A stretch of DNA of 64,000 bases from Akkermansiaceae bacterium (GCA_026421245.1 JAPKDJ010000013.1:1-64000), one strand, 5' to 3'; shown: positions 32,589-63,783, numbered from the stretch's first letter. Numbers and translations: made by a program. Notes: generated by a model not told the origin, from the letters alone.

Positions 32589-33074
32589 TTAAAACTCACT
32601 TACAGTAGCTGGCTTCTTGCCCTTTTTGGGGCCGCCTTTGCCTTTGCCTTTACCTTTACCTTTACCTTCGGGAGCACCTTTTCCTCTTGCAGGGCGATCT
32701 CCGCGAGGAGGCATGGCCTTGCGCATTTCGGCGCGCTCTTCTTCGCTGAGTTTTCCGTCAGTGTTTTTGTCGAATTTCTTGATCATTTCAGCGCGACGGG
32801 CGGCGGAGGCGTCTTTACGCTCTTCGGCGCTAAGTTTTCCGTCTTTGTCCTTGTCGAATTTCTTAAGCATTTCGGCCTTGCGAGCTTCGCCGGCAACTTT
32901 GCGCTCTTCGGCGTTGAGTTTTCCGTCTTTGTCCTTGTCGAACTTTTCAAGTATTTCCTTGGGGACGGGACGTGCTCCACCGCGAGGGCTTTTTCCTTTT
33001 CCTTTGGGAGGTTCGGCATTTGCGATGGCACATGTGGCGAGGGCCACGATGACGGATGTCAGTTTCATTTTCAT
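32589..33074 (-). CDS. secreted EF-hand protein
   Basis: Signal peptide; loops DKDKDGKLNAEE, DKDKDGKLSAEE, DKNTDGKLSEEE; Gly/Lys-rich tail. Confidence 0.9.
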   Translation of the reverse strand: MKMKLTSVIVALATCAIANAEPPKGKGKSPRGGARPVPKEILEKFDKDKDGKLNAEERKVAGEARKAEMLKKFDKDKDGKLSAEERKDASAARRAEMIKKFDKNTDGKLSEEERAEMRKAMPPRGDRPARGKGAPEGKGKGKGKGKGGPKKGKKPATVSEF

Positions 33075-58354: not shown

Positions 58355-61300
58355 ATGGATGCTATGCCCAGTAATCTCCCCCCTGAGATCAAGTCCGGTC
58401 TTGTTTTGCTTCGCCGGCGCATCCGGCGCATTCAACTTTTTCGCGGGCTTTTGCGAACTGCGAGTGTTGTCCTGGTTGGCCTTCTGGTGATTGTTGCGTT
58501 GGATTATTTTCTGGCTCCTCTTCCGTCCTGGGCTCGCGCGGGGCTCTTTTTCGCTTGGTTGGCAGCGATTGCAGTCGCCTCTGTTTTTTTCATTTTACGC
58601 CCTTTATCAGGCAAGTTGCCTCTTGTTCGTCTCGCCCGTTGGTTGGAAGACCGCCATCCCGAGGTTCAGGAGCGAATTAGCACTGCGCTCGAACTTTCGG
58701 ATCATCCGGAAGGAATCTCTCCCGATCTTCTCGAGGAACTTTCAAAAGAAGCTGCCGCCGACATCAGCACGGTTGATCCGCGCGATGAGGTGAAGGGGAG
58801 AAGAATTCGGAGTTCCATGTGGCCCGCTGCCACCGCTCTGGTCGCACTGATTGCTCTGGTTACAGTCTGGCCTCGCGAAATGGGGCGCCTTTTAACACGC
58901 GCCGTTTCTCCTTTCTCCCAGCTTGGGAATGCCGGGGCCTTCAAATTTGAGATTAATCCGGGTGACGTTGAGCTTCTCGAAGGCGATGAACTGACCATCG
59001 ATCTGATCTACACCGGGCCCCTTGAGAAGCCGCTGGAGTTGGTCATTGAAAAAGACGGTGAAAGCCTCTCCGAGACCCTCGAACCAACATCGTCGGACGG
59101 TGACATTCACACATACGCCTACACCGTCCATTCCGCCGAATTGGGATTCAAATACTCGGCCCGGGTTGCGGGAAGCGAGAGCGATCGGTTTGATGTGAAA
59201 GTTTATCCTCTCCCGCGTCTCCTCGAATCAGTGGTGACCTTGCAATATCCTCCATACACCGAGTGGCCGGATCGAAGTATGTCACTGGGTGGGGGAGTTC
59301 AGGCGCTGGCCGGAACCGAAGTGACGGTAAAAGGGCGTTTTGATACTCCTGTGGAAAGTGGTGAGTTGCTTTTCGATACCAAAAAATTTGGCGAGGTGAC
59401 TTTGGAGCCGTCGGCAACCGGAACCACGATGACTTGGAGCGAGACTCTCAAGCCGCGGCTCGATGGCATCGCCAAGTTAAATATGAAGCACCGCCTCGGG
59501 CGCGTTCTTGAAGGGGCCCAATTCCAACTAACCGCCGTAGAGGATCCTGCTCCGGTGGTAAAGATTCTGACTCCGGTTCAGCGGGATTTTCGCGTGAAGC
59601 CAAACGAGCAGATCATTATTACCTACGATGTTCTAGAAAAGATTGATGTCGCTAAGGTTGAGATCGAACTTGAAGTAAATGGCAAGGCGGTTGAGCCAAT
59701 CAAGGAGCCTCTACCTGAACGCATCGATGGCGAAGATGGAAAGCTTTGGGAAGGAAAGGCCATGGTCTTTCTCGGAAGTGTAGTTTCGCAACACAAGGGG
59801 GCGCGCGAATTCCGGATGCGACTGGCTCTCAGCGACAACCGACCGGAAAGCCTCGAAGGCCCCGGAGTGGGTTACTCGGAGTGGCTGGAAATTAAGCTCG
59901 ATCAATATGCCGAATCGCTTGTTCGGCAGGAATTGAAAAAGCAAGACAGCGACCTTCAAAAGACGATCGAAAAGGCCGTTCAAGCTATCCACGAGGCCCG
60001 CGCTAAAATACAAGAGGCCAAGAACGAGCTTCATAAGGAAGAAATCCCCGAGGCGGCTGAGAAGAATCTCGCCAAGGCGCGAGAGAAGCTGAAGGAGGCT
60101 CAAAAGGATCTCTCGGAGCTGAGTGAACGGATGAAGCAAGGCTTACAGGAGCATCGGCGCGATAATGTTGAGGAAGCTGTCGCCAAGCTTCAAGAGGCAC
60201 AGAAATCTGTCGAAAACACTCCCCTTCAGGATACTCCTGAATCGCGGCAGGCTGAAGTTGACAATGCGCTTCGCGAAACTAGCGAGGCCATCGACGATCT
60301 CCAAAAGCTTCGGGATGAAGTTCAGAATGATCATCCCCAAATGGATGATCTGGCCAAGCTCCAGGAAATGGCCCAGAAGCAGGAGGAACTTGCAAAGAAG
60401 GCCCAGGAAGAGACCTCGCCCGAGCCCGATCAGGATTGGAAGAACAAGCAGCGCCAGATGCAGGAGGAGATCACTCAAAAGGTGAGAGAATCTCCTGAGG
60501 CCAAGGCTGCCGCAATGAAGTCGCAGAGTGAGCAGGCCATGGAACTTTCCAAAGAAGCCGAGGCTCTCAAGAAATCTCAAGAAGAGCTTTCCAAGCTCAG
60601 CGAGCAGGCCGTGCCCACCACGCCACAGATGAGCGAGGAGCAGCTTGAGAATGCTCTGGCGAAAGAGCAGCAGGATGCCGCGACGGAGGCCCGCGAGGAA
60701 CTGGCGGATGCTCGTCGCGACCAGGAGTCCCGCGCCGAAGATCTTCCCAAGGCTGTTGCCGAAGCCGAGAAGGCTGCGGACGAAGTGCGTCAGTCAAAAC
60801 CCGAAGAAGCCGCCGAGTCGGCAAAGAAGGCTGCTGAGGAGCTTGCCAAGGGTGCGGAGGACGCTCCTTCACAGCAGGCCCTCCAAAAGAAACAGGAGAA
60901 GTTGGCGGAAGCCTTCGAAGCTCTTGCGGAAGGAAAGACAGAAGAAGCTCAAACTGCTCTCGAAGAGATCCAAGACATGTTGAGTCCTCGTGAAATTGGA
61001 GCGGCTCTTGCTGAGGAACAAAAGGAAGCTCTTCAGGAGGCAAAGGAGGAATTGGCGGAAGCCCGGAAGGATCAGGAGGCCCGTGCCGAAGATCTCCCCG
61101 AAGCCGTTGCCGAGGCCCAGGAGGCCTTGAACGAGGCCCGCCAAAATAAGCCTGAAGCGGCTGCCGAAGCGGCCAAAAACGCGGCAGAGGAATTGGCAAA
61201 AGGGGCGGAGGAATCGTCCTCTCAAAAAGCTCTCCAAAAGAAGCAGGGAAAACTGGCTGAGGCCTTTGAAGCACTTGCGGAAGGAAAGATCGAAGAGGCT

Positions 61301-62734
61301 CAGGCGGCTCTTAAGGAAGTCCAGATGACTCCCGATTACGATGACGTGGCCAAGGCGCTTGCGGAGGCCCAACAGGATCTTGTCGAAGGAACGAAGGAAG
61401 AGTTGCAAGAGGCTCAGGAGGGTCAAGAGGCCCGAGCCGAAGATCTGCCGAAGGCGGTCGAGCAAGCTCAAGCAGCTTTGGATGAGGCAAAGCAAGCCGA
61501 TGCCAAAGGCGCTGCCGAAGCGGCGCAAAAGGCTGCCGAAGAATTGGCCAAAGGAGCGGGGGAATCTCCTTCTCAGGAAGCTTTGCAGAATCAACAAGAA
61601 GCACTCGCCGAAGCATTTGAAGCACTTGCCGAGGGCAACACCCAGGAAGCTCAGGCTACCTTGGAAAACATGCAGACGCAGAATTTGGGAGATGCTTTGG
61701 AACAAGCTCTTGCTCGCGAGCAGGAGGCTGTTGTTGAAGGCACGAGGGAGGAATTGGCGGAAGCCCGCGAAGGTCAGGAGGCTCGTGCCAATGACCTGCC
61801 CGAAGCACTTGCTCAAGCTGAAACTGCCCTCGAAGGAGCCCAGGAAGGAGACGTGAAAGCCGCTTCCGAAGCTGCCCAACAAGCTGCGCAGGAATTAGGC
61901 AAAGGTGCTGAAGCCTCTCCTTCCCAGGCGGCTCTCCAGGAGAAGCAGGAAGGCATCGCCGAAGCACTTCAGGATCTTGCTGAAGGTCGCGCCAGTGAGG
62001 CCCTCGCTGCTCTGGAAGAGATGCAGGCAGAACGAGGCGCCGAATTGGCCCAAGACATTCAAGCGATGGCTCCGGTCGAAGGGAATCCCATGAGGCAGGC
62101 TCAACAAGAAGCGTCTGCCGGAGCTCAGAAAGCGGCTCAGGCCTCACAAGCCCAGCAAGCAGGCCAGGCCCAGCAAGCAGCTCAGCAGCACCAACAGTCC
62201 GCCAGCAAGTTTGCCGAGGCCCAGCAGTCTTTGGAGAAGGCTTCCCAGCAACTCGCGAAACAAGCGGAAGCTGCGGCGTCCCAACCCGAAAACTCCCGTG
62301 TTGCTCCCGCCCCCGGTGATGCCATGGCTGAGGCACTCCAGCAAAGTGCCCAGGCCGCCAATGCCGGTGAATCACAAGAAGCCGCTGCAAGTTCCCAGGC
62401 TGCTGCCGAGGCCCTTCGACAAGCAGCCAATGAGGCGATGTCGAACATGAAGCAAGGTGGTAAGCCCGGCGAGGGAATGGCTCAGGCCAACGAGCCCGGG
62501 CAACCTGGGGAGGGAGCTCAACCCGGTGAGGAAACCAAAGAAGGAATGCGTCAGGACCAGGGTGATTTGGGTGTTCCCGTCGAACTGGCCAAGCTCGGTA
62601 TCAGTGCCTCCGATTGGGAGAAAATTCAGGCGACTCTTCAGACTGATGTCAGCGGATCACGTCGCGCGGTCATTCCCGAGGATTACCGCGGTTTGGTTAA
62701 AAAATACTTCGAGCAAGTCTCTAAAAAACAATGA
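58355..62734 (+). CDS. DUF4175-like membrane protein with extended coiled coil and four 117-aa repeats
   Basis: Two N-terminal TM helices, LARWLEDRHPEVQERISTALEL, a third TM, Ig-like region, very long Glu/Ala/Gln-rich coiled coil. Confidence 0.85.
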   Translation: MDAMPSNLPPEIKSGLVLLRRRIRRIQLFRGLLRTASVVLVGLLVIVALDYFLAPLPSWARAGLFFAWLAAIAVASVFFILRPLSGKLPLVRLARWLEDRHPEVQERISTALELSDHPEGISPDLLEELSKEAAADISTVDPRDEVKGRRIRSSMWPAATALVALIALVTVWPREMGRLLTRAVSPFSQLGNAGAFKFEINPGDVELLEGDELTIDLIYTGPLEKPLELVIEKDGESLSETLEPTSSDGDIHTYAYTVHSAELGFKYSARVAGSESDRFDVKVYPLPRLLESVVTLQYPPYTEWPDRSMSLGGGVQALAGTEVTVKGRFDTPVESGELLFDTKKFGEVTLEPSATGTTMTWSETLKPRLDGIAKLNMKHRLGRVLEGAQFQLTAVEDPAPVVKILTPVQRDFRVKPNEQIIITYDVLEKIDVAKVEIELEVNGKAVEPIKEPLPERIDGEDGKLWEGKAMVFLGSVVSQHKGAREFRMRLALSDNRPESLEGPGVGYSEWLEIKLDQYAESLVRQELKKQDSDLQKTIEKAVQAIHEARAKIQEAKNELHKEEIPEAAEKNLAKAREKLKEAQKDLSELSERMKQGLQEHRRDNVEEAVAKLQEAQKSVENTPLQDTPESRQAEVDNALRETSEAIDDLQKLRDEVQNDHPQMDDLAKLQEMAQKQEELAKKAQEETSPEPDQDWKNKQRQMQEEITQKVRESPEAKAAAMKSQSEQAMELSKEAEALKKSQEELSKLSEQAVPTTPQMSEEQLENALAKEQQDAATEAREELADARRDQESRAEDLPKAVAEAEKAADEVRQSKPEEAAESAKKAAEELAKGAEDAPSQQALQKKQEKLAEAFEALAEGKTEEAQTALEEIQDMLSPREIGAALAEEQKEALQEAKEELAEARKDQEARAEDLPEAVAEAQEALNEARQNKPEAAAEAAKNAAEELAKGAEESSSQKALQKKQGKLAEAFEALAEGKIEEAQAALKEVQMTPDYDDVAKALAEAQQDLVEGTKEELQEAQEGQEARAEDLPKAVEQAQAALDEAKQADAKGAAEAAQKAAEELAKGAGESPSQEALQNQQEALAEAFEALAEGNTQEAQATLENMQTQNLGDALEQALAREQEAVVEGTREELAEAREGQEARANDLPEALAQAETALEGAQEGDVKAASEAAQQAAQELGKGAEASPSQAALQEKQEGIAEALQDLAEGRASEALAALEEMQAERGAELAQDIQAMAPVEGNPMRQAQQEASAGAQKAAQASQAQQAGQAQQAAQQHQQSASKFAEAQQSLEKASQQLAKQAEAAASQPENSRVAPAPGDAMAEALQQSAQAANAGESQEAAASSQAAAEALRQAANEAMSNMKQGGKPGEGMAQANEPGQPGEGAQPGEETKEGMRQDQGDLGVPVELAKLGISASDWEKIQATLQTDVSGSRRAVIPEDYRGLVKKYFEQVSKKQ
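60650..62053 (+). repeat. four tandem 351-bp (117-aa) intragenic repeats
   Basis: Units start at 60650, 61001, 61352 and 61703; each has xALAxEQ...EEL...QEARAEDLP...AAEELAKGA...SQxALQxxQ..AEAFEALAEG...EAQ.AL; no length change. Confidence 0.93.
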
Positions 62735-63783
62735 AATATCTCTCCTCATTCCTTCTCTGTCTTTTCCTAGTATCGATCGGACAGGCTCAAGAGATCTCGC
62801 CAACCGTTTTTGCCAAGTGGAAGGAAAGGGTCGCTCCCTCGGTTGACCGAGGCCTTCAGTATCTTGCCCGAGTCCAGGAAAAAGACGGAAGCTATCCGGG
62901 AAGCTACGGCAACTCCTGTGGCATTCCTGCTCTAGCCGGAATGGCCTTTCTGTCACGGGGACATATGGCGACCGAAGGTCCGTATGCCAATCCGCTCAAT
63001 AAAATAATCGACTTCCTCATCACTCGCCAGAATCGCGAGGGCCTTTATACTGGGGGGCAGTATGGCAGCGGTCCCATGTATGGTCATAACATTGCGACCC
63101 TCTTTCTTTCGGAAGTTTCCGGCATGGTCGATCCCGATCGACAAAAGAAGATCAACGAAAGCCTGCCTCGGGCTCTCGCTCTCATTTTACGGGCCCAGTC
63201 GGTGAAGAAAAGCACTAGACATCAAGGCGGGTGGCGTTATCACCCGAACTCGAGGGATTCTGATACGTCCTGCAGCGGGTGGGCTCTCATGGCATTGCGC
63301 TCGGCCAAGCTCAACGGAGCGGATGTTCCTGATAAATCCATCGAAGAAGCCATCAAATATCTCTACGGAAATTTTTCCGAAAAGAACGGGCATTTCGGGT
63401 ACTCCAGTCCTCATAATCAAAAGCACTCGCTCACCGGAATGGGGCTCCTTTGCTTGGAGCTTTGTGGAGAGCACGGAAAGGCTTCCACGATCATCGCGGC
63501 CAACTACATCTTGCAAAATTTCCGAGCCCTCGAAGGAGCTCAGTTTGAGTTTTACGGGAATTATTACAACGCGCAGGCGATGTTCCAGATCGGAGGAAAA
63601 TATTGGGAAACATACGCCGATTGGATGTACGAGATTTATTTAAAAAAGCAGAAAGACGATGGCTCGTGGTATAGCCGTGAGGCGGGTCAAGTTTATGGGA
63701 CTGCCATGATGACTCTCGCCTTTACGGTTCCCTATCGTCAGCTTCCCATTTACCAGCGTGACGAGACGGTGGACGAAGAGTAG
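62731..63783 (+). CDS. secreted prenyltransferase/squalene oxidase repeat-containing protein
   Basis: VDRGLQYLARVQEKDGSYPGSYGNSCGIPALAGMAFLSRGH; QGGWRYHPNSRDSDTSCSGWALMALRSAKLNG; ATGA overlap with upstream gene. Confidence 0.9.
   Translation: MKYLSSFLLCLFLVSIGQAQEISPTVFAKWKERVAPSVDRGLQYLARVQEKDGSYPGSYGNSCGIPALAGMAFLSRGHMATEGPYANPLNKIIDFLITRQNREGLYTGGQYGSGPMYGHNIATLFLSEVSGMVDPDRQKKINESLPRALALILRAQSVKKSTRHQGGWRYHPNSRDSDTSCSGWALMALRSAKLNGADVPDKSIEEAIKYLYGNFSEKNGHFGYSSPHNQKHSLTGMGLLCLELCGEHGKASTIIAANYILQNFRALEGAQFEFYGNYYNAQAMFQIGGKYWETYADWMYEIYLKKQKDDGSWYSREAGQVYGTAMMTLAFTVPYRQLPIYQRDETVDEE

Follow-up and report, generated by a model that had tools for sequence, protein, structure and literature searches.

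Tandem 117-residue units of variable number in a giant, apparently membrane-anchored protein of an Akkermansiaceae bacterium

Envelope proteins with repeat arrays whose unit number varies by intragenic recombination have been described as Periscope Proteins (SasG, Rib, and Sgo_0707); their repeats are near-identical, vary from strain to strain, and hold a functional domain out from the cell surface (PMC8201768, PMC9704523), and the threshold used in searching for them was set at long repeats (over 50 aa) with ≥80% identity (PMC8201768). Repeat number also varies in the helical stalks of trimeric autotransporter adhesins, which form trimeric parallel coiled coils (PMC9704523). The array reported here lies in a 64,000-nucleotide stretch of DNA from an Akkermansiaceae bacterium (GCA_026421245.1, JAPKDJ010000013.1:1-64000; referred to as the window), within a 1,459-aa open reading frame (positions 58355 to 62734, plus strand) that we call the giant protein. 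Like the Periscope Proteins, it presents a tandem domain array in an envelope protein, with a unit number that differs between relatives. However, its units are 50 to 68% identical (57 to 66% at the DNA level), below the 80% criterion, its variation was observed between species, and the protein is apparently anchored in the inner membrane, with no adhesin domain found; a Pfam search returned no known surface or anchor domain, and three N-terminal hydrophobic segments are present instead. As for the rod expected of a Periscope Protein, the window units were predicted to be helical only at a mean pLDDT of 60. We consider the Periscope Proteins the nearest described kind and the giant protein to work somewhat alike, without classing it as one of them. 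With the stalks of the trimeric autotransporter adhesins it shares helical repeats of variable number, but it lacks an autotransporter domain (Pfam) and its unit contains helix breakers.

Orthologues in more than 25 related genomes match most of the N-terminal 765 aa of the giant protein, for which an alternative in-frame ATG is present at 58364, 9 bases downstream of the first. A hydropathy scan predicted three transmembrane segments, at aa 38 to 56 (58466 to 58522; likewise found in the orthologues L050, L055, and L058), aa 63 to 81 (58541 to 58597), and aa 153 to 171 (58811 to 58867). Since these hydrophobic segments all stand at the N-terminus, the protein downstream of the third is likely periplasmic, a topology derived from the basic N-terminus. 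Two nonrepeated regions follow, a conserved one that is remote kin of DUF4175 paralogues (aa 172 to 539; 58868 to 59971) and one that is helical in a low-confidence model and directly precedes the array (aa 540 to 765; 59972 to 60649). Downstream of the array, an Ala/Gln-rich, indel-prone linker (62054 to 62569) leads to a C-terminal motif, GVPxELAKLGIS..DWEKI ... PEDYRGLVKKYFEQ (62570 to 62731), that is conserved at the ends of orthologues and of which a shorter form closes the distant, paralogue-like L061 to L063. A (P/E)xxYRxLxxxY(Y/F)-like motif can be seen at the ends of the orthologues (62570 to 62731 in the window) and of the DUF4175-related L061, L062, and L063; it is a possible docking site.

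The first-pass annotation had called the protein DUF4175-like, a label that we could not confirm. No significant domain of any kind was found in the giant protein in Pfam, DUF4175 included: PF13779 gave no match to the whole protein up to an E value of 1, its C-terminal piece reached 9.2 bits (cut-off, 27.3), the orthologues L050, L055, and L041 scored below the cut-off, and the 117-aa units had no match to PF13779 either. A paralogue in a sister genome (L063, on G026:C430) matches the N-terminal part of the giant protein (E = 3.1e-15); its own DUF4175 score, 30.4 bits, is over the cut-off. Homology to DUF4175 proteins is thus detectable through this paralogue, with the giant protein itself under the curated cut-off, and the kinship would appear to be remote. 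The division protein AdvA of Acinetobacter carries DUF4175 in its N-terminal part (PMC7481262), which we did not take as functional evidence for the giant protein.

Four units of 117 aa (351 bp) had been reported at 60650 to 62053, and these coordinates proved exact to the base, with all units in frame on the plus strand: unit A (60650 to 61000; aa 766, beginning NALAKEQQDA), unit C (61001 to 61351; aa 883, AALAEEQKEA), unit D (61352 to 61702; aa 1000, KALAEAQQDL), and unit E (61703 to 62053; aa 1117, QALAREQEAV). The DNA repeats, from near 60653, are spaced 351, 351, and 351 bp from start to start. Equally well founded was the claim of exact length despite divergence within the window, with pairwise protein identities of 68, 56, 50, 59, 53, and 56% over 117 ungapped positions and an alignment that is gap-free at the DNA level as well. 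Being rich in Ala (24 to 27%) and Glu (19 to 21%), the units might be suspected of a chance likeness between generic helices of that composition, with coincidental spacing. However, a self-alignment gave 400 summed identities between units, against 99.6 ± 8.7 after within-unit shuffling (maximum of 130 in 2,000 shuffles), the units are as similar in DNA as given above, and each was recovered by the unit profile with E values of 1e-48 to 1e-53. Furthermore, among offsets of 1 to 419 the strongest self-match was at 117 (9.8 SD over the mean), with 234 and 351 next in rank. Ala/Glu composition was accordingly ruled out as the cause of the repeat by the shuffle test and offset scan together, and a chance likeness can be regarded as negligibly probable. 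Across the window genome, the profile found the four units in the giant protein and none elsewhere, and the unit had no significant sequence match in Pfam, NCBIfam, or the PDB. A 337-aa open frame runs antisense to the array (60869 to 61882, minus strand) and likely results from the codons used for Ala, Glu, and Gln.

The first-pass annotation had also described the protein as a coiled coil and suggested a periplasmic rod or ruler. Position-averaged hydropathy does show a helical periodicity in the unit, in sub-segments, and no heptad or hendecad pattern ran unbroken from one end of the unit to the other. The unit is interrupted by Gly95 (98% conserved), Gly68 (67%), and Pro33, Pro51, and Pro73 (50 to 59%), and an AlphaFold model of two units, computed with rows from the window alone, placed helices at residues 2 to 48, 51 to 66, 75 to 93, and 97 to 109, with the next unit being similar (mean pLDDT, 60; pTM, 0.34). 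A single-sequence run of 701 aa gave a similar helix pattern (pLDDT, 59.8; pTM, 0.26). With low confidence, then, the unit is modeled as four helices with Gly or Pro at their boundaries, and a continuous rod is disfavored. Both models, for which the window sequence was the only input, were used for secondary structure alone, and since they are poor (pLDDT of about 60; pTM of 0.34 and 0.26), helix count and packing are provisional. For the same reason, a PDB fold search with the two-unit model was uninformative, its best hits being generic helical bundles and receptors (E = 0.69).

To follow the array among relatives, 58 genomes were searched with the N-terminal 765 aa, and 44 of them gave some match, paralogues included. 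From 32 genomes, 33 regions were taken, one of them the paralogue L063, two distant (L061 and L062), and one broken by a contig break or frameshift (L045). Unit counts, obtained with a profile built on the four window units, rest on draft assemblies for all genomes close to the window and on one genome per species. Five units were counted in L031, L033, L034, L036, and L037; four in L032, L035, L038, L039, and L040; two, the first of them incomplete, in L041, L043, and L044; and one in L042. One good and one weak match were present in each of L047 and L048, L049 and L050 had partial matches only, and in L046 no unit was matched by the profile. A census of the genus agreed with these counts (matches in 18 of 27 genomes), and in 241 genomes from the order, nothing beyond two partial matches turned up outside the genus, these belonging to two further genera of the same family. 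Overall, congeners have 0, 1, 2, 4, or 5 units, changing in whole-unit steps, and close relatives differ, as does the total length of the protein (about 1,030 to 1,577 aa). The comparison of orthologues thus bears out the earlier proposal of a variable unit number. Arrays with four or five units occur in one clade, and the type of the last unit, E, is the most widely shared in the genus and is retained where units are few. Because the first unit of the two-unit genomes aligns only partially, the order in which the array grew is uncertain. The orthologue without units still has both conserved ends, and so does the one-unit species.

Other repeats occupy the corresponding region elsewhere. A 122-aa repeat pair is present in the orthologues L056 and L058 (aa ~690 to 930), which belong to another family of the same order; these repeats lie at a similar site in the protein and, by eye, are unlike the 117-aa unit, so that the pair looks like a separate expansion. 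L057 additionally has a 45-aa triplet, and repeats of short period occur in L041, L043, L044, and L049. Such unrelated repeats suggest a spacer that, in many lineages, can accommodate expansion.

In a tree of 58 units, the units grouped for the most part by position (A, B, C, D, and E) rather than by species, with some deep branches being weak. The window array reads A, C, D, E, whereas that of the closest relative, L031, runs from A to E, indicating that unit B was either lost in the lineage of the window or gained in L031; since the L031 unit joins the other B units weakly (84/59), the direction is unproved. On the tree of the N-terminal region, unit number, as scored, changed at least nine times. 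How such changes come about can be seen in the second unit of L038: its first 156 nucleotides match L037 unit B (0.85 to 0.97) and the remainder matches L037 unit C (0.90 to 0.97), with the switch at about nucleotides 130 to 155, inside a near-identical stretch of about 20 nucleotides, and with the length still at 351 nucleotides. Read from its sequence, this unit is a clean in-register B/C fusion, from which it follows that unit number changes through in-register recombination, as had been supposed, in at least this one congener. The second unit of L039 is a B unit in which C-like bases are limited to roughly the final 20 nucleotides, a different and weaker junction. Assembly collapse is an unlikely source of the differences in unit number, since identical in-register bases between neighboring units do not exceed 29 in any of the genomes checked.

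The exact length of the units had been taken as a sign of selection on spacing, as in a periplasmic rod or ruler. As a ruler, the array would be a rigid rod in which unit length is selected and unit number sets a fixed distance, for instance from the inner membrane to the wall or outer membrane. The constancy itself is real, since the 117-aa length is kept in 10 of the 11 closest genomes, apart from one additional residue in first units; three predicted membrane segments lie ahead of the array, and the units are constrained. The four window units (A, C, D, and E), compared with those of L031, had a dN/dS of 0.04 to 0.07 and the N-terminal region one of 0.06, values to be read with a dS that is above 1 and saturated; purifying selection acts on the units about as it does on the remainder of the protein. 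However, the repeat-free N-terminal 600 aa had zero gap events in 8,784 substitutions, counted over all pairs of 11 congeners; such pairs are not independent, so this figure and the following ones are descriptive. On the same scale, there were 0.75 gap events per 100 substitutions in the segment before the array, 0.8 in orthologous first units, and 3.9 in the segment after the array; orthologous last units had none, at 22% divergence, and units compared within one protein had 0.8 per 100 substitutions. Since the N-terminal region shows the same lack of indels, exact unit length need not imply a ruler; any portion of this protein that is folded and constrained looks that way. Moreover, first units are 118 aa long in 9 of the 11 closest genomes (most other units being 117), distant units measure 114 or 120 aa, closely related species differ across the range of 0 to 5 units and total lengths noted above, the linker 3' of the array is prone to indels, and Gly and Pro breaks argue against an unbroken rod. 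An orthologue without repeats, which the first-pass annotation had itself named as counting against its reading, exists and retains both ends. We therefore hold a ruler to be quite unlikely; the array is real and varies between species, a spacer but probably not a precise molecular ruler.

A possible setting for such a spacer is provided by the neighboring genes. Directly adjoining the giant gene downstream is a 350-aa open reading frame with squalene/hopene-cyclase-like repeats (62731 to 63783, plus strand; PF13243, E = 2e-9), and a cyclase-like gene lies beside the giant gene on the same strand in 27 of the 33 fetched regions. In G032 and G041, which represent two related genera of families other than that of the window, the same-strand order is MoxR (AAA+, AAA_3), DUF58, BatA/VWA, a further large membrane protein, the giant gene, and the cyclase-like gene; the BatA/VWA product carries PA14 and CARDB domains, and the further membrane protein has weak VWA or MG2 matches only. 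Genes upstream in G051 look, by appearance, like DUF58 and BatA, with no MoxR gene directly adjoining. In the window genome, however, the giant and cyclase-like genes (contig C24 of G000) lie at another locus than the MoxR, DUF58, and BatA/VWA genes, which are together with the next gene on contig C85 (G000:C85:72704-79900; L087). A literature search found no paper connecting the giant protein with MoxR; because of the gene order in these relatives, we infer that it may be functionally linked to a MoxR/VWA module.

Our favored reading, to which we give a probability of about 0.55, is that the array is a helical spacer that tolerates changes of length, within a membrane-anchored protein partnering the MoxR/VWA module. 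A folded, α-helical module of 117 residues would have been tandemly duplicated inside an inner-membrane-anchored envelope protein, and in-register recombination between adjacent units alters their number, with fused units keeping the normal length. That length would be fixed because the unit is a compact helical bundle, with indels and out-of-register fusions being purged and no distance being measured. The array would extend a tolerant spacer between, on one side, the three-helix membrane anchor plus the extracytoplasmic domain and, on the other, the C-terminal motif, which probably docks a partner. For the MoxR-DUF58-BatA/VWA module, the giant protein would most likely provide a scaffold or client-contact arm anchored in the membrane, its reach or valency being loosely adjusted by array length.

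The tolerance just described could also mean that unit number has no function at all and that the array is a side effect of duplication and loss within the gene, in a spacer without a length requirement. Consistent with this are the intact ends of species with one unit or none and the unrelated expansions in L056, L058, L057, L041, L043, L044, and L049; on the other hand, unit dN/dS is low, orthologous last units are free of indels despite their 22% divergence, and up to five units have preserved their positional identity through considerable divergence. Low dN/dS and positional identity demonstrate constraint on the units themselves rather than any importance of their number, and we regard such neutral duplication as an unlikely yet still appreciable alternative to the length-tolerant spacer of a MoxR/VWA partner. 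A bolder version of the latter, that an undescribed 117-residue helical domain forms a recombination-tuned, length-adjustable arm on a MoxR/VWA-associated protein, periscope-like and facing the periplasm instead of the cell surface, seems rather doubtful to us. The array is lineage-restricted and recombining. Of an ordinary kind, it documents the changes of its units with unusual clarity: unit by unit, a helical domain array can be followed as it grows and shrinks in register, in a family that travels with MoxR/VWA clusters. Should array length be functional, the congeners with 0 to 5 units would constitute a natural test series.

Finally, elsewhere in the window (32733 to 32957), we observed an 84-bp tandem repeat, the reverse-strand consensus of which is EF-hand-like, with 28-aa units (KKFDKDKDGKLSAEER).
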